DNA of 64,000 bases. It comes from Weissella koreensis KACC 15510 (GTDB taxonomy: Bacteria; Bacillota; Bacilli; Lactobacillales; Lactobacillaceae). Numbering within the stretch: the stretch's first letter is position 1; each line of letters opens with the position of its first letter. The stretch lies in contig NC_015759.1 of the NCBI RefSeq assembly GCF_000219805.1, positions 186,001-250,000 on the forward strand. The letters run 5' to 3'. The translations under genes were made by a program, and so were the position numbers. Of this stretch, positions 14,922 to 24,202 are shown one piece after another. Below the pieces are notes generated by a model that saw only the letters and a program-made list of their open reading frames with translations, ran no database searches and was not told the origin of the DNA.

Positions 14922-14950
14922 AAAAAAGCAATAACATAAGTCATTGCTTT
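14922..14950 (-). terminator. Terminator after deoxyribosyltransferase gene
   Basis: AAAGCAATGAC and GTTATTGCTTT (minus strand) form an 11-bp stem followed by TTTTTT. The same stem sequence ends the four RNA units between 18.6 and 21.5 kb and the GlsB gene at 20270. Confidence 0.85.
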
Positions 14951-14965
14951 AAATATAATTTAAAA

Positions 14966-16035: not shown

Positions 16036-16740
16036 ATGAATAAGATCAAAGAATTATGGACCACTACATTGTGGTTTAAAGTCGTTATCATACTAATTGC
16101 AATTTTTATCGCGTATAGTTTACCAAGCTTTGCCGTCTTTATTGGTTTTATAGGTTTAATTTATTCTTTTATTTCGTATATACGAAAATTATTATTAAAA
16201 AAGAAAACAAAATTTAATCCAAACTATCTTTTATTAGCTGGTTTAATTTTTATAATCATTGGCTCAAGTAATCCTGCTTTTCATAAAGGCACTACGAACC
16301 AAAATGAGCCAATCTCGTCTTCATCATCTATTAAAAAGTCTAAAGCAGAGTCTGAAAGCAAAGTTAATTCTGAGAGCAAAGCTAAGGCCAGCTCAGAAAG
16401 CAAAGCTAGGTCTGAGAGCAAAGCCAAAGCCACCTCAGAAAGCAAAGCTAAGTCTGAAAGTCAATTAGAGTCTGAATCCATTGCTTCTAGTGAGTCTGCT
16501 GAAGAATCACAAAGAATAGTTAATTCGGAATCAGCCGCAAGTTCCAGCGTTGCTGCAGCTGCATCTCAAGTACAGCAAGCCCAAGTTCAATCCACACCAA
16601 GTAGCTCTGGTGGTTCTAGAACTGGTAGCCATTGGGCAATTCAAGACGGTTATGATTGGTCTACTAGAAAAGGGCATTCTCATATTATTCCGGCTGGTGG
16701 CGCTCTTCCTGCTGGATATCATTGGGAAGTCGCCCAATAG
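16036..16740 (+). CDS. Membrane-anchored Ser/Lys/Glu-repeat protein
   Basis: 234 aa. Residues about 12-50 and 65-80 are hydrophobic and probably span the membrane. Then comes a low-complexity stretch of tandem SESKA(K/R) repeats (about 100-150), and a conserved-looking C-terminal tail with GYDWSTRKGHSHIIPAGG and GYHW. The layout suggests a membrane protein whose tail reaches outside through a flexible linker. I do not know its function. It shares the leader motif and AAGGAGTAG ribosome site with genes in the 33-35 kb region. Confidence 0.7.
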   Translation: MNKIKELWTTTLWFKVVIILIAIFIAYSLPSFAVFIGFIGLIYSFISYIRKLLLKKKTKFNPNYLLLAGLIFIIIGSSNPAFHKGTTNQNEPISSSSSIKKSKAESESKVNSESKAKASSESKARSESKAKATSESKAKSESQLESESIASSESAEESQRIVNSESAASSSVAAAASQVQQAQVQSTPSSSGGSRTGSHWAIQDGYDWSTRKGHSHIIPAGGALPAGYHWEVAQ

Positions 16741-18571: not shown

Positions 18572-18631
18572 ATGAAACACGAGGAACGTCACAATTTAAC
18601 AACACCTGCTTCACTTCCATTGATAAAATAA
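18572..18631 (+). pseudogene. Very short frame with strong ribosome site, likely gene remnant
   Basis: GGAGG lies 7 bases before an ATG opening a 19-codon frame that begins MKHEERHN. The ribosome site is better than expected by chance, but the product is too short to recognise. It may be the start of a gene whose remainder was lost, or a leader peptide. No gene follows on this strand. Confidence 0.3.
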
Positions 18632-18667: not shown

Positions 18668-18814
18668 ACAAAAAAGCAATAACCTGAGTCACTGCTTTAA
18701 TGTGTAAAAATAATTAAACTAGTAACGCTGGAATAGCTTATTTATAGATTAATAACTAATTCAATCTTATAAACAGGGGAAGGCTACCCAGCGTCACCGC
18801 AAGCATAACACTTT
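18668..18814 (-). ncRNA. Small RNA-like unit, copy A
   Basis: On the minus strand TTTAAA (18844-18849), a 17-base spacer and TATATA (18821-18826) predict a start near 18814. The RNA would begin a few bases before GTGTTATGCTT (18801-18811), form a stem from CCAGCGT (18788-18794) and ACGCTGG (18725-18731), and end at a terminator (18673-18698) with TTTTTT. The apical region contains CTTCCCCTG, complementary to G-rich ribosome sites. Three relatives are at 19.3, 20.9 and 21.4 kb. It sits downstream of the CsbD gene at 18894 and could also be its 3' UTR. Confidence 0.55.
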
Positions 18815-18893
18815 AATCTATATATACCTATTTCATTAATCAATTTAAAAAACGCCTGAACCTGATCAGACGTTAATATATAATACTTATAAT

Positions 18894-19148
18894 TTAATTC
18901 TTTTTATGATGTACCAAAACAGCGGTTGTAACCGCCGCAACTGCTGCGGCGACAATGATTGAAGTCATTATTGGCATTTGAGAAGCGTTATCTTTAACCA
19001 CTTCCCACTTCTCCTCAGTCTTACCCATCAATTCTTCAGCCATACCTTCAGCTTCAGTTTTATGATCACCAGTGACCTTACCTGCTACATCTTTAACTTT
19101 ACCTGTTACTTGATCCTTCATTCCATCTAACTTGTCATCTAAAGCCAT
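18894..19148 (-). CDS. CsbD family protein with C-terminal membrane anchor
   Basis: 84 aa. The first 55 residues are CsbD-like (MALDDKLDGMKDQVTGKVKD ... GDHKTEAEGMAEELMG). They are followed by a single alanine/valine-rich hydrophobic helix (IIVAAAVAAVTTAVLV) and a basic end. The other two CsbD copies in the window lack this anchor, so this one is probably held at the membrane. AGGAGG is upstream of the ATG at 19148. Confidence 0.8.
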   Translation of the reverse strand: MALDDKLDGMKDQVTGKVKDVAGKVTGDHKTEAEGMAEELMGKTEEKWEVVKDNASQMPIMTSIIVAAAVAAVTTAVLVHHKKN

Positions 19149-19255
19149 AATAGATTCCTCCTCTAGTTGAATAAATGAATTTTCATCCATAGTTAATACT
19201 GCTAATATTTATATTATAACACGATAAAGAAACCGCTGTTATTGTTATCTTAAAA

Positions 19256-19389
19256 CAAAAAAACAATAACCGAGGCCATTGTTTTTCATTATGGACTATG
19301 TCCATTGACGCCGGATAAGCTTTTTAAAGAGAGTGCTTCTTACATAAAAAAGAGGAATAATATCCGACGTCTGAGCAAGCATAACACGT
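19256..19389 (-). ncRNA. Small RNA-like unit, copy B
   Basis: On the minus strand TTTAAA (19419-19424), a 17-base spacer and TATAAT (19396-19401) form a good promoter. GTGTTATGCTT (19376-19386) lies at the predicted 5' end. The long stem pairs 19360-19370 (TATCCGACGTC) with 19306-19316 (GACGCCGGATA). The loop carries TTCCTCTTTTTT, an anti-Shine-Dalgarno-like run. The terminator (19258-19285) ends in TTTTTTT. Located between the genes at 18894 and 19469. Confidence 0.6.
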
Positions 19390-19468
19390 TTATCTAATTA
19401 TACCTATTTTATTGGTAAATTTAAAAAACGTATGTTACGACTATCAGACGTCCATAAAATATTTTTAT

Positions 19469-19723
19469 TTAATCTTCTAACATATAATCAGTGACATAAA
19501 GATGATCCAAAAAATCCTGTGCATTATCTTTATCCGTAGTTTCATTATCAATTTCAGACTGTACAGACTTTTCAATTTCTTTGCGCACTTCTTCTGAGCG
19601 TCCATATTCAACACTAATGTGAACACGGTGGACTTTTTCATTCCAATCAATAGTAGTTGGGCCCCATGTGCTTAAGTGTAAATCTTCTATCCAGTTTGAT
19701 ACCTCTTCTTTTGAATATGCCAT
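19469..19723 (-). CDS. Small conserved-looking protein, unknown function
   Basis: 84 aa, acidic, without membrane segments (MAYSKEEVSNWIEDLHLSTW ... DHLYVTDYMLED). I do not recognise a family. AAAGGAGTG precedes the ATG, and the gene starts 14 bases after the stop of the HesB-like gene, so the two form an operon. The RNA-like copy B follows. Confidence 0.65.
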   Translation of the reverse strand: MAYSKEEVSNWIEDLHLSTWGPTTIDWNEKVHRVHISVEYGRSEEVRKEIEKSVQSEIDNETTDKDNAQDFLDHLYVTDYMLED

Positions 19724-19737
19724 TCTTCACTCCTTTA

Positions 19738-20100
19738 TTATGCCATCATGGGCCCATCACGGACAATAACACTATCATCCAAAATACCTTGTTCACTAGT
19801 AATAACTAGTCCACCAAACGTTGACACTTCAACCTTCATATTTTCTGCTAAGTACTCTTTAGCATAGCCTTTAACTGGAATCTTTCCATAATTAGAATCG
19901 ACTTCCATATCAAACCATGGTAATAGTGGTTGATCATTTCGCAAAATTAATATGACTAATGAAATTTGCATTGCTCCTTCTGCTGTTATTGAATAGGGTG
20001 AAACACCATCTTCATACATAAGTACAATACGTCGATCATTCTTTTGATTTAAAATGGGACTGATTTTTTTCATTGCTTCATCAGTGAAAGTAATATACAT
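19738..20100 (-). CDS. HesB/IscA-like (Fe-S biogenesis fold) protein lacking cysteines
   Basis: 120 aa resembling the iron-sulfur biosynthesis (HesB/YadR/YfhF) family, with the MYITFTDEAMKKI opening and YGKIPVKGYAKEYL in the second half. There is no cysteine anywhere, so it cannot bind a cluster as IscA does. Such cysteine-free members are seen in lactobacilli, with unknown roles. I start it at the ATG at 20100, which has AGGAGGT upstream; the upstream codons in the longer frame are not supported. Confidence 0.65.
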   Translation of the reverse strand: MYITFTDEAMKKISPILNQKNDRRIVLMYEDGVSPYSITAEGAMQISLVILILRNDQPLLPWFDMEVDSNYGKIPVKGYAKEYLAENMKVEVSTFGGLVITSEQGILDDSVIVRDGPMMA

Positions 20101-20157
20101 TTGCTTACCTCCTAATTTTATAAATAAATTATACAACTTTTTCAAAAATATAGATTA

Positions 20158-20187
20158 AAAAAAGCAACAACCTAAGTCATTGCTTTT
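20158..20187 (-). terminator. Terminator after GlsB copy 2
   Basis: AAAAGCAATGAC and GTTGTTGCTTTT (minus strand) form the stem, followed by TTTTT. It belongs to the same hairpin family as the RNA-unit terminators, but here without the 5' stem. Confidence 0.8.
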
Positions 20188-20269
20188 CGTATGTGACATT
20201 AAAAAATCTCGGTGTATTAATACTATTAAGAAATATATAATACTAATTCAATGTCTTTTTAAAATTTAA

Positions 20270-20512
20270 CTAGTTTTTACTACGTCCCATTAACCATGAA
20301 ACTAAAATTACAACAATTACTGCACCTATAATAGATGGGAAAAGTGCCATTCCTGCTAAATGTGGTCCCCATGATCCCAGTAATGTTTCACCTAACCATG
20401 AACCAATCAATCCAGCGACAATATTACTTATCCATCCCATCGATGTTTTGGTAATAGCACCACCAATTGCTCCAATAATCGCTCCAATAATTAACGTCCA
20501 AATTAATCCCAT
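20270..20512 (-). CDS. GlsB/YeaQ/YmgE family stress membrane protein (copy 2)
   Basis: 80 aa, very similar to the copy at 14328-14570 (both share GLIWTLIIGAIIGAIGGAIT at the N-terminus). It lies 22 bases downstream of CsbD copy 2. The ribosome site is an unusual GGGGGG run, a possible match to the C-rich loops of the nearby RNA units. Probably a stress-induced membrane protein. Confidence 0.85.
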   Translation of the reverse strand: MGLIWTLIIGAIIGAIGGAITKTSMGWISNIVAGLIGSWLGETLLGSWGPHLAGMALFPSIIGAVIVVILVSWLMGRSKN

Positions 20513-20534
20513 ATTGCCCCCCTAAATTAATTCT

Positions 20535-20741
20535 TTAGTTTTTAAATTTTTCCTTAACATCTTCAGCCATTTCAGAAGCGGAATCTTTAACCTCACCTAA
20601 CTTCTCTTTAGCTTTACCCATTAAGCCTTCAGCTTTACCTTCAGCTTCTTTTTGTGAATCACCGGTAACCTTACCAGAGACTTCCTTAACCTTACCTGTT
20701 GCTTGATCCTTCATTCCATCTAACTTGTCATCTAAAGCCAT
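20535..20741 (-). CDS. CsbD family stress protein (copy 2)
   Basis: 68 aa, Lys/Glu-rich, without cysteine or membrane segment. It matches copy 1 through most of its length (MALDDKLDGMKDQATGKVKE, then EAEGKAEGLMGKAKEKLGE). It is the first gene of the second CsbD-GlsB pair, with GAGGAGG upstream. The paralogy with 14603-14809 points to a local duplication of the whole pair. Confidence 0.85.
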   Translation of the reverse strand: MALDDKLDGMKDQATGKVKEVSGKVTGDSQKEAEGKAEGLMGKAKEKLGEVKDSASEMAEDVKEKFKN

Positions 20742-20849
20742 ATAGAATCCTCCTCTAATAAAAAAATGAATTTACATTCATAGTTACGTTATTTACATTA
20801 ATATTATATCATAGCCAAGAAAGCGCTGTCATCATACTTTTTAAATATT

Positions 20850-20972
20850 TAAAAAAGCAATAACCGAAGTCATTGCTTTTCATTATGGACGGCTGTCCCT
20901 GACGTCGAATATTTTTTTAATAGAGTTAAAAGAAATAATATTCGTCCGACGTCTGGGCAAGCATAACACGTT
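20850..20972 (-). ncRNA. Small RNA-like unit, copy C
   Basis: On the minus strand TTTAAA (21001-21006), a 16-base spacer and TATAAA (20979-20984) predict a start near 20972. GTGTTATGCTT is at 20959-20969. The stem pairs GACGTC plus GAATATT on each side (20901-20913 with 20937-20953, a 3-base bulge). The terminator is at 20853-20880. The loop is pyrimidine-rich (TTTCTTTTAAC). It follows the gene at 21047 and precedes CsbD copy 2. Confidence 0.58.
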
Positions 20973-21046
20973 TATTCATTTATACCTATTTTATTTAAAA
21001 TTTAAACATTATTAGCCGCTGTAGGATTAACTCTTTAGAATAAATA

Positions 21047-21301
21047 TTAACCTTTTAGTCCCTTTGCTTGGCGTTCCATATTTTCTATCACTACATCAAA
21101 TACAGTCCCAATAGTAATTAGATAATCTATAACACGTCCTGGATTATCAGTATGATAATGTACCTTCATTAGTTCATCATCCCCACCAACGATTAAACTA
21201 TTACCTGGAAATTTAGTTTCTATTTGTTCAGTTAAATCATCTTCATTTAAAGTTGATCCTTCAATCAGTGCTTGAGTATCAAAAATATATTCATCATTCA
21301 T
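21047..21301 (-). CDS. Mini-protein resembling the C-terminal domain of FakA (DAK2/YloV family)
   Basis: 84 aa. GNSLIVGGDDELMKVHYHTD followed by NPGRVIDYLITIGTVFDVVIENM strongly resembles the C-terminal part of the fatty-acid kinase subunit FakA, but the kinase domain is absent. It has its own GGAGG ribosome site and start codon, so it seems to be a free-standing gene and not a broken one. Its role is unknown; a ligand-binding or regulatory function is only a guess. Confidence 0.65.
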   Translation of the reverse strand: MNDEYIFDTQALIEGSTLNEDDLTEQIETKFPGNSLIVGGDDELMKVHYHTDNPGRVIDYLITIGTVFDVVIENMERQAKGLKG

Positions 21302-21369
21302 TTTGTAGGCCTCCGTAAATTTTAAGATAATTATACTGCTTTAATATTCTTAATACCATTTATATATAC

Positions 21370-21503
21370 AAAAAAAGCAACGACCTAAGTCATTACTTTT
21401 ATGTAGAACAATAATTCCACGCAACGTCAAATTATACTTTTAGATATGTGTCTCTTGAGGGGTAACACAAATCCATTCGACGTTATTATAAGCATAACAC
21501 TTT
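21370..21503 (-). ncRNA. Small RNA-like unit, copy D (most divergent)
   Basis: On the minus strand TTCAAT (21530-21535), a 17-base spacer and CATAGA (21507-21512) form a weak promoter. GTGTTATGCTT is at 21490-21500 in the same relative place as in the other copies. AACGTC (21423-21428) and GACGTT (21479-21484) pair. An internal hairpin exposes ACCCCTC, complementary to GAGGGGT. The terminator is at 21373-21400. It follows the tautomerase gene. Confidence 0.5.
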
Positions 21504-21597
21504 TGTTCTATGAAACTTAAACATATCATATTGAACCAGTATGTTAAAATCGATTACTCAATTTTTAAATTCACATGGGTCTGAATGAATTATTTAA

Positions 21598-23473: not shown

Positions 23474-24202
23474 TTATAATTTTCTTGCTGATAAAATCAT
23501 CATCATTGGACGACGGAACTCATCCTTCATACCAGGAATATCCAGCATTGAATCTGGTGGTGTTGGCTCAACTAGATGTTGAATTGTAAATCCATTTTTA
23601 ATCAAAGTTTCAATATACGTTTCCAACGTACGGTGATACTTGATAACTGGTGTCTCCCAAAAGTTTGTTTCCCTAACTGACTCATCAAAATAACGATCAA
23701 CTGGAAAATTTTTAATTGACCCATCTTCATTTAACGTCCATTGTTCCGTTCCTTCAGACGTAAATATTGGATGTTCCACTGAAAAAATAAATTCTCCATT
23801 TGGATTCAATAATGTTTGAACATTAGCGACGACTTTTTCAAAATCTTCTACATAATGTAAAGCTAAAGAACTAAATACTAAATCGAATTTAGCATTCATA
23901 GAATTCAAATTATTAATATCAATTTTCTTAAACTCTACATTATTAAATTTATTTTTTTGCTTTGCAATAGCCAACATTTTATCTGAACTATCTATTCCTA
24001 AAACGCTATTAGCTCCATTTTCCGCAGCATAAAAACTATGCCAACCATAACCACTGCCCAAATCTAACATAGTTTTATTTTTTAAATTAGGTAATATTTT
24101 TTTTAGCTGCTCCCATTCACCAGCGCCATTTAATCCATATTTACTTCTATTCATTTTTGAATATTCATCAAAAAACTTTTCATTATCATATATATTGCTC
24201 AT
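23474..24202 (-). CDS. SAM-dependent methyltransferase
   Basis: 242 aa, class I Rossmann methyltransferase. MLDLGSGYGWHSFYAAENGA is motif I, LGIDSSDKML is the acidic loop, and FDLVFSSLALHYVEDF is motif IV. It resembles the UbiE/COQ5-like group. No neighbour indicates the substrate. GTGGG precedes the ATG. Confidence 0.82.
   Translation of the reverse strand: MSNIYDNEKFFDEYSKMNRSKYGLNGAGEWEQLKKILPNLKNKTMLDLGSGYGWHSFYAAENGANSVLGIDSSDKMLAIAKQKNKFNNVEFKKIDINNLNSMNAKFDLVFSSLALHYVEDFEKVVANVQTLLNPNGEFIFSVEHPIFTSEGTEQWTLNEDGSIKNFPVDRYFDESVRETNFWETPVIKYHRTLETYIETLIKNGFTIQHLVEPTPPDSMLDIPGMKDEFRRPMMMILSARKL

Follow-up and report, generated by a model that had tools for sequence, protein, structure and literature searches.

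In the kimchi bacterium Weissella koreensis KACC 15510 (genome of 1,441,470 bases in two contigs, of which C2 has 1,422,478), a stretch of 64,000 nucleotides (nt), C2:186001-250000, hereafter the window, contains four related minus-strand units, u1 to u4, which we read from their sequence as members of a new, narrowly distributed multicopy family of small RNAs (sRNAs). All four lie where an earlier note on this DNA had placed them and all have the 5' tail in common. From 5' to 3', each is predicted to comprise a promoter element, the tail GUGUUAUGCUU, a hairpin S1 with a long variable loop, a second hairpin S2, which is weak in u1, and a terminator hairpin S3. Nine more copies were found at four places in a second species of the genus, genome G004 (handles beginning with g4). 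We have very little doubt that the units form a real structured RNA family.

The case for a family rests on tail, stems and promoter element. The complement of the tail, AAGCATAACAC, has exactly four matches in the whole genome, every one of them inside a unit, while the reversed control pattern has none in the same genome. The promoter element, TAGGTATA, stands just ahead of the tail in 12 of the 13 copies of the window and G004, and its spacing is equal in u1, u2 and u3; the similar promoter described in the earlier note therefore holds for these three units, but at the corresponding place u4 has the diverged TTAAGTTT.

The predicted folds of u1, u2, u3 and u4 have z scores of -6.3, -4.0, -5.3 and -4.6, respectively, and in each case none of 200 dinucleotide shuffles was as good; the folds of the nine G004 copies, taken singly, are less convincing (z of -2.3 to -5.9, equalled by 0 to 6 of 200 shuffles). 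In the alignment of all 13 copies 93.8% of the cells are paired and ten of the 26 base pairs have changed on both sides. Paired cells, two-sided changes and covariation score were reached by 0 of 500 shuffles and the number of further pair types by 14 of 500, and sliding the pairing partners by 1-3 columns leaves only 33-56% of cells paired. When near-duplicates are collapsed to nine copies, two-sided pairs number five in S1, two in S2 and three in S3; since all copies come from two species, the independent events are fewer than the cells. Within the window alone, where pairwise identity is only 45-69%, two-sided changes affect four of ten pairs in S1, two of four in S2 and one of 12 in S3, and paired cells amount to 38 of 40, 15 of 16 and 47 of 48, respectively. 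The covarying stems on which the earlier note had built its proposal are thus confirmed; a mere DNA repeat lacking conserved pairing, which it had named as the finding that would count against it, was looked for and not found.

Conservation is unevenly distributed along the unit. Mean identity over the copies is 99% in the tail, 85% and 79% in the two arms of S1, 79% in S3 and 64% in S2, and falls to 50% in the linker between tail and S1, 40% in the loop region and 33% in the linker between S1 and S2. The related terminator, previously counted among the shared features, is present but provides weak evidence of kinship: near-identical terminators lie outside the units at window positions 14924-14954 and 20158-20187, and terminators of this type, AAGCAAUGACUUAGGUUGUUGCUU, also follow ordinary genes and turn up in further species of the genus (L033-L038), which makes S3 unsuitable for recognising the sRNA family. 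The second of these terminators belongs to a stretch behind glsB (20158-20255, minus strand) in which an S1-like hairpin precedes S3; it scores 38 bits with the covariance model of the family, has neither tail nor promoter element, and may represent either the decayed remains of a unit or a 3'-end RNA.

The G004 copies are arranged as a tandem pair (L028), a cluster of four (L029), a group of two (L030) and a single copy (L027), which sits among prophage-type genes. The L029 cluster is flanked by csbD-glsB on one side and, on the other, by a methyltransferase gene resembling that at window positions 23474-24202, and is therefore probably orthologous to the window region. A covariance model built from all 13 copies gives these copies 88-137 bits and anything else in 28 genomes of the genus at most 38 bits. 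Some match at an E value of 1 or less exists in 25 of these genomes, the aligned weak matches being mainly terminator, and the family was not recognised in the remaining 26 genomes searched. None of the 26 weakly matching loci that were checked, namely those with retrieved sequence, combines the tail (with up to two mismatches) with the start of the stem; the six best of eight aligned weak loci are terminator matches, and L035 has GUGUUAUG but no S1. The tail pattern occurs in 12 of the 28 genomes, and its surroundings reveal units only in the window genome and G004, the matches in the ten others having been rejected on inspection. In another genome of the genus, G015 (L018, about 1501-1526), the same 11-mer forms an inverted repeat (AAGCATAACAC / GTGTTATGCTT) with T's after it; this is terminator-like and probably a coincidence.

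The covariance-model search over the Lactobacillaceae that had been suggested as a check was run on 397 genomes of this family, drawn from a larger group, and only the window genome and G004 passed an E value of 1e-7, with pairing retained in this second species (eight candidates were scored per genome, hence eight G004 matches). When 395 genomes of the order were searched for the exact tail-stem pattern, the window genome was the only one among the matches listed, with three of its four copies. The same pattern was found at four places in GTDB r220 contigs, all in unrelated bacteria, and a shorter one at 21 places in IMG/VR; these candidates were discarded, as none exceeds 19.9 bits with the covariance model. 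A G004-type pattern had 0 matches in IMG/VR and a G004 cluster gave no blastn match to plasmids and phages, collections which, like GTDB r220, may omit the window genome and its close relatives.

The copies appear to multiply together with their surroundings. Indeed, u2 with csbD1 (18894-19387) and u3 with csbD2 (20535-20969) represent one duplicated module, extending from about -38 to +400, with 77% identity over 459 aligned bases. In G004, where some pairs of copies are 93-97% identical, g4g and g4h were copied together with a methyltransferase gene, to about +725. As larger blocks have been copied within each species, the copies are taken to originate from segmental duplication, which at times includes a passenger gene. 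Between the species, u2 and u3 match G004 copies by blastn over the whole unit, from about 19-26 bases before the tail to near the terminator, and the match between g4c and u2 starts at the tail. The positions of the units and of the adjacent genes are given in Table 1.

Table 1. Predicted units, their parts and adjacent genes (window positions).
Feature	Position	Strand	Remarks
Unit u1, predicted sRNA, 142 nt between tail and T-run inclusive	18670..18811	-	88.5 bits, covariance model R1
Unit u2, predicted sRNA, 131 nt	19257..19387	-	119.9 bits, model R1
Unit u3, predicted sRNA, 119 nt	20851..20969	-	114.6 bits, model R1
Unit u4, predicted sRNA, 130 nt	21371..21500	-	104.5 bits, model R1
u1 5' tail GTGTTATGCTT	18801..18811	-	
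u2 5' tail	19377..19387	-	
u3 5' tail	20959..20969	-	
u4 5' tail	21490..21500	-	
u1 promoter element TAGGTATA	18823..18830	-	
u2 promoter element TAGGTATA	19399..19406	-	TTTAAA-17-TATAAT reading at 19425-19397
u3 promoter element TAGGTATA	20981..20988	-	
u4, place of promoter element	21512..21519	-	diverged to TTAAGTTT
u1 terminator hairpin S3	18673..18698	-	
u4 terminator hairpin S3	21373..21400	-	
u2 main hairpin S1 and variable loop	19307..19371	-	arms about 19361-19371 and 19307-19317
csbD1 coding region	18894..19148	-	downstream of u2, duplicated with it
csbD2	20535..20741	-	downstream of u3, duplicated with it
glsB	20270..20512	-	candidate target in the earlier note; ribosome site unexceptional

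The reading that we place first, with a probability of about 0.45 for the mechanism as a whole, is that of a lineage-specific family of trans-acting sRNAs in which pairing with ribosome sites is specific to each copy. The units would be transcribed separately, if they are transcribed at all, into RNAs of about 120-145 nt ending by intrinsic termination, and the family would grow by duplication. The tail, stems and terminator would supply a common frame, serving stability, a shared partner or control by loop-tail pairing, while the variable loop of each copy would have target mRNAs of its own, pairing with their ribosome sites and blocking translation. A search with the PF17209 profile found no Hfq in the genome; the pairing in trans would therefore be Hfq-free. 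Control through loop-tail pairing is ranked below this as a bolder reading, and attenuation in cis as a rival. What stands of the multicopy post-transcriptional regulators first proposed for this locus is a structured, separately terminated family with covarying stems; anti-Shine-Dalgarno (SD) loops as its defining feature are not supported.

The loops were compared with 422 ribosome sites taken from 455,400 bases, about one third of the chromosome, by means of a simple custom gene caller with an 80-codon cut-off, which left out csbD2; pairing was computed without accessibility. The whole u3 loop pairs with these sites better on average than 40 of 40 shuffles, and a segment of the u2 loop better than 39 of 40; for the whole u2 loop, ten of 40 shuffles were as good. 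The strongest single interaction consists of 13 contiguous pairs, two of them G-U, between the u1 loop and an SBP_bac_3 gene at its ribosome site and start, and this amino-acid ATP-binding cassette transporter binding-protein gene (C2:437161-437994) is an unproven candidate target of u1. The orthologues of the candidate targets of u1 and u4 in G004 are 84% and 80% identical, from which nothing is concluded because G004 has no counterparts of the u1 and u4 loops.

A number of results weigh against copy-specific pairing in trans. Complementarity to ribosome sites, claimed earlier for the loops in general, does not extend to the whole u1 and u4 loops, which pair with the 422 sites no better on average than shuffles (39 and 25 of 40 as good). 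The pairing of u1 with SBP_bac_3 was equalled by three of 200 shuffles against the 422 sites, an uncorrected result that becomes about 0.06 after correction for four copies, and that of the u4 loop with a femAB gene, matched by 56 of 200 shuffles, was rejected. The u1 and u4 loops lack counterparts in G004, and blastn to G004 yields only 41-43-base matches for u1 and none for u4. The family is carried by two species only among the 397 genomes, and the tail, if regarded as a seed, shows no clear excess of complementary 7-mers at the 422 gene starts.

The tail may have another partner within the RNA itself. Its antisense is carried in the loop of g4g and g4i (AAGCAUAAC) and of g4b and g4d (AAGUAUGGCAU), where 0 to 0.015 of 400 shuffles were as good, and the five differences of AAGUAUGGCAU from AAGCAUAAC keep or improve the pairing with the tail. 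The fold predicted for g4i breaks S1 in favour of tail-loop pairing. Weaker antisense is found in the loops of u2 and g4a (0.035 and 0.048 of shuffles), and nothing worthy of mention in the other seven copies. These observations bring to mind a cassette family that acquires new targets through duplication: its fixed frame of promoter element, 5' tail, stem ends and terminator is kept while the loop is rewritten, each copy becoming a separate translational repressor and the tail acting as a control element through loop-tail pairing, by self or mutual silencing; we regard this as a speculative possibility. Outside the units, the genome has four exact 9-mer complements of the tail, which are taken as chance. 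One of the four, AAGCATAAC, is situated in the leader of the gene of a TetR-type regulator (L118, 3624-4181, minus strand), just after TATAAT.

Returning to the loops, they might instead act as redundant anti-SD sequences, in the manner of the csRNAs or LhrC, with all copies hitting much the same sites, including that of glsB, and copy number setting the dose. A C-rich word (CCC, CCUC or CUCC) is found in seven of 13 loops and in three of the four in the window (u1, u2 and u4, not u3), the scores of the whole u3 loop and the u2 segment fit such a scheme as well, and glsB ranks 7 of 422 for the u4 segment. On the other hand, the loops are among the most variable parts, six of 13 have no C-rich word at all, and none of the 13 exceeds shuffles at 0.05 against the SD consensus (fractions 0.07-0.78), so that anti-SD loops had to be abandoned as a defining feature. 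Nor does the ribosome site of glsB, put forward in the earlier note as a target, stand out: it ranks 9, 47, 55 and 7 of 74 window genes for the whole u1, u2, u3 and u4 loops, respectively, and 35, 114 and 272 of 422 for the short u1, u2 and u3 segments. The corresponding whole-loop ranks are 23, 30, 42 and 38 for csbD1, 17, 15, 3 and 49 for csbD2, and 45, 1, 4 and 51 for an 84-amino-acid gene; the last, first for u2, and csbD2, third for u3, were dismissed as they are not energy outliers, and the 84-amino-acid gene ranks 159 of 422 for the short u2 segment. Redundant action of this kind is rather unlikely.

A leader acting in cis would require the tail to serve as an antiterminator by pairing with the terminator's 5' arm, thereby controlling read-through into the gene behind. 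A tail-S3 duplex of nine pairs with one bulge is predicted in nine of 13 copies, u2, u3 and u4 each precede same-strand genes, and u2 and u3 were duplicated along with csbD1 and csbD2. However, only three of the nine duplexes reach 0.05 relative to shuffles, and neither u2 nor g4d retains the duplex; 3' of the u2 and u3 terminators, csbD1 and csbD2 each have their own promoter-like site, no same-strand gene lies close behind u1, and no G004 unit was found directly ahead of csbD. Attenuation is consequently viewed as unlikely.

A dispersed DNA repeat or mobile element without RNA function is a very unlikely reading of the units. The nine G004 copies at four places, near transposase genes or among prophage-type genes, and the inclusion of flanks in the duplications could be taken in that sense, but two-sided pair changes exceed those of shuffles, conservation runs from promoter element to terminator, and different duplications carry different flanks, which fits ordinary segmental duplication. 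Short coding genes are highly improbable: AUG CUU occurs in the tail of every copy, and in G004 three copies are each enclosed by a frame that has a good ribosome site (75 codons over g4a), but the frames end at different places, the differences between g4a, g4g and g4i mostly change the amino acid (judged by eye), and the window copies have no ribosome site ahead. In G004, g4a, g4d, g4g and g4i (L027, L029 and L030) are each preceded by a terminator and then by a strong ribosome site with an ATG leading into the unit, and in three of these four the frame extends across the unit.

Least probable of all, and scarcely credible, is that the units are extra copies of a non-canonical Weissella 6S RNA: a study of lactic-acid-bacterial 6S RNA does report an unusual structured RNA for Weissella, its candidates lacking a confirmed canonical rod (PMC8414754), and RF00013 finds none in the window or the whole genome (control: matches in five of 14 genomes), but the units form separate hairpins, an architecture different from that described, and probably lie at another locus, the transcribed candidate being downstream of rarA (PMC8414754), which is absent from the ten proteins scanned in the vicinity of the units, no search aimed at rarA having been made.

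The remaining neighbours of the units encode an Fe-S_biosyn-domain protein, a tautomerase and a lone FakA-type middle domain of 84 amino acids (21047-21301, minus strand), the remainder of the fatty-acid kinase being absent; an 84-amino-acid protein near the units had no Pfam or NCBIfam match. The stress-gene setting emphasized in the earlier note suits csbD and glsB, yet in G004 five of the nine copies are situated away from the csbD-glsB region. The promoter-like sites of csbD2 and csbD1 (20803-20832 and 19213-19242, minus strand) overlap AGCGGTTTC and AGCGCTTTC, respectively, which we take to be reminiscent of catabolite-control (cre) sites. Convergent with u1, a 19-codon frame with a GGAGGA site (18572-18631, plus strand) was noted by eye and possibly encodes a small peptide. 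A 42-base tandem repeat lies within a Ser/Lys/Glu-rich coding frame at 16354-16457 (plus strand).

A young, multiplying family with four copies in one species and nine in another would show sRNA paralogues in the course of changing targets. Its fixed frame and variable loop constitute a natural series for testing the roles of loop and 5' tail in a harmless food bacterium, in a genus for which little literature on sRNAs was found and in a genome in which Hfq was not detected.

Searches of the openly licensed literature on small or regulatory RNA in Weissella and on multicopy sRNAs of lactic acid bacteria revealed no such family, the one Weissella RNA paper found being about 6S RNA (PMC8414754), and with Rfam 15 no family reaches its gathering score in the units, which give weak matches below the cut-off, the window as a whole containing three tRNAs only. 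Two known systems nevertheless invite comparison. The streptococcal CiaR-dependent csRNAs are likewise multicopy, with complementarity to ribosome sites in some copies, and their length in pneumococcus, 87-151 nt, encompasses the 119-142 nt predicted for the window copies (PMC8186281). Similarity among the csRNAs is greatest in the stretches complementary to ribosome sites, whereas here the loop has 40% identity and the tail 99%; their promoter is characterized by the CiaR repeat TTTAAG-N5-TTTAAG (PMC8186281), which near the four Weissella promoters has only matches with three mismatches, in a window where the count is that of chance (248 found and 245 expected), so that the kinship with csRNAs suggested by the earlier note finds no support in this repeat. 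LhrC1-5 of Listeria, controlled by the two-component system LisRK, resemble the units in their several homologous, clustered copies, in their hairpins and terminator, and in a C-rich loop of some copies with proposed blocking of ribosome sites (PMC4132741). The LhrC copies, however, are virtually identical, in contrast to the 45-69% of the window copies, and carry a CU-rich UCCC in a loop, in a single-stranded stretch and in the terminator loop (PMC4132741), while in our alignment UCCC appears in three of 13 loops (u1, g4c and g4f) and in no terminator loop. As the defining features of both systems were looked for and differ here, the units are filed under neither, and the family they form may nonetheless work in the manner of LhrC or the csRNAs.

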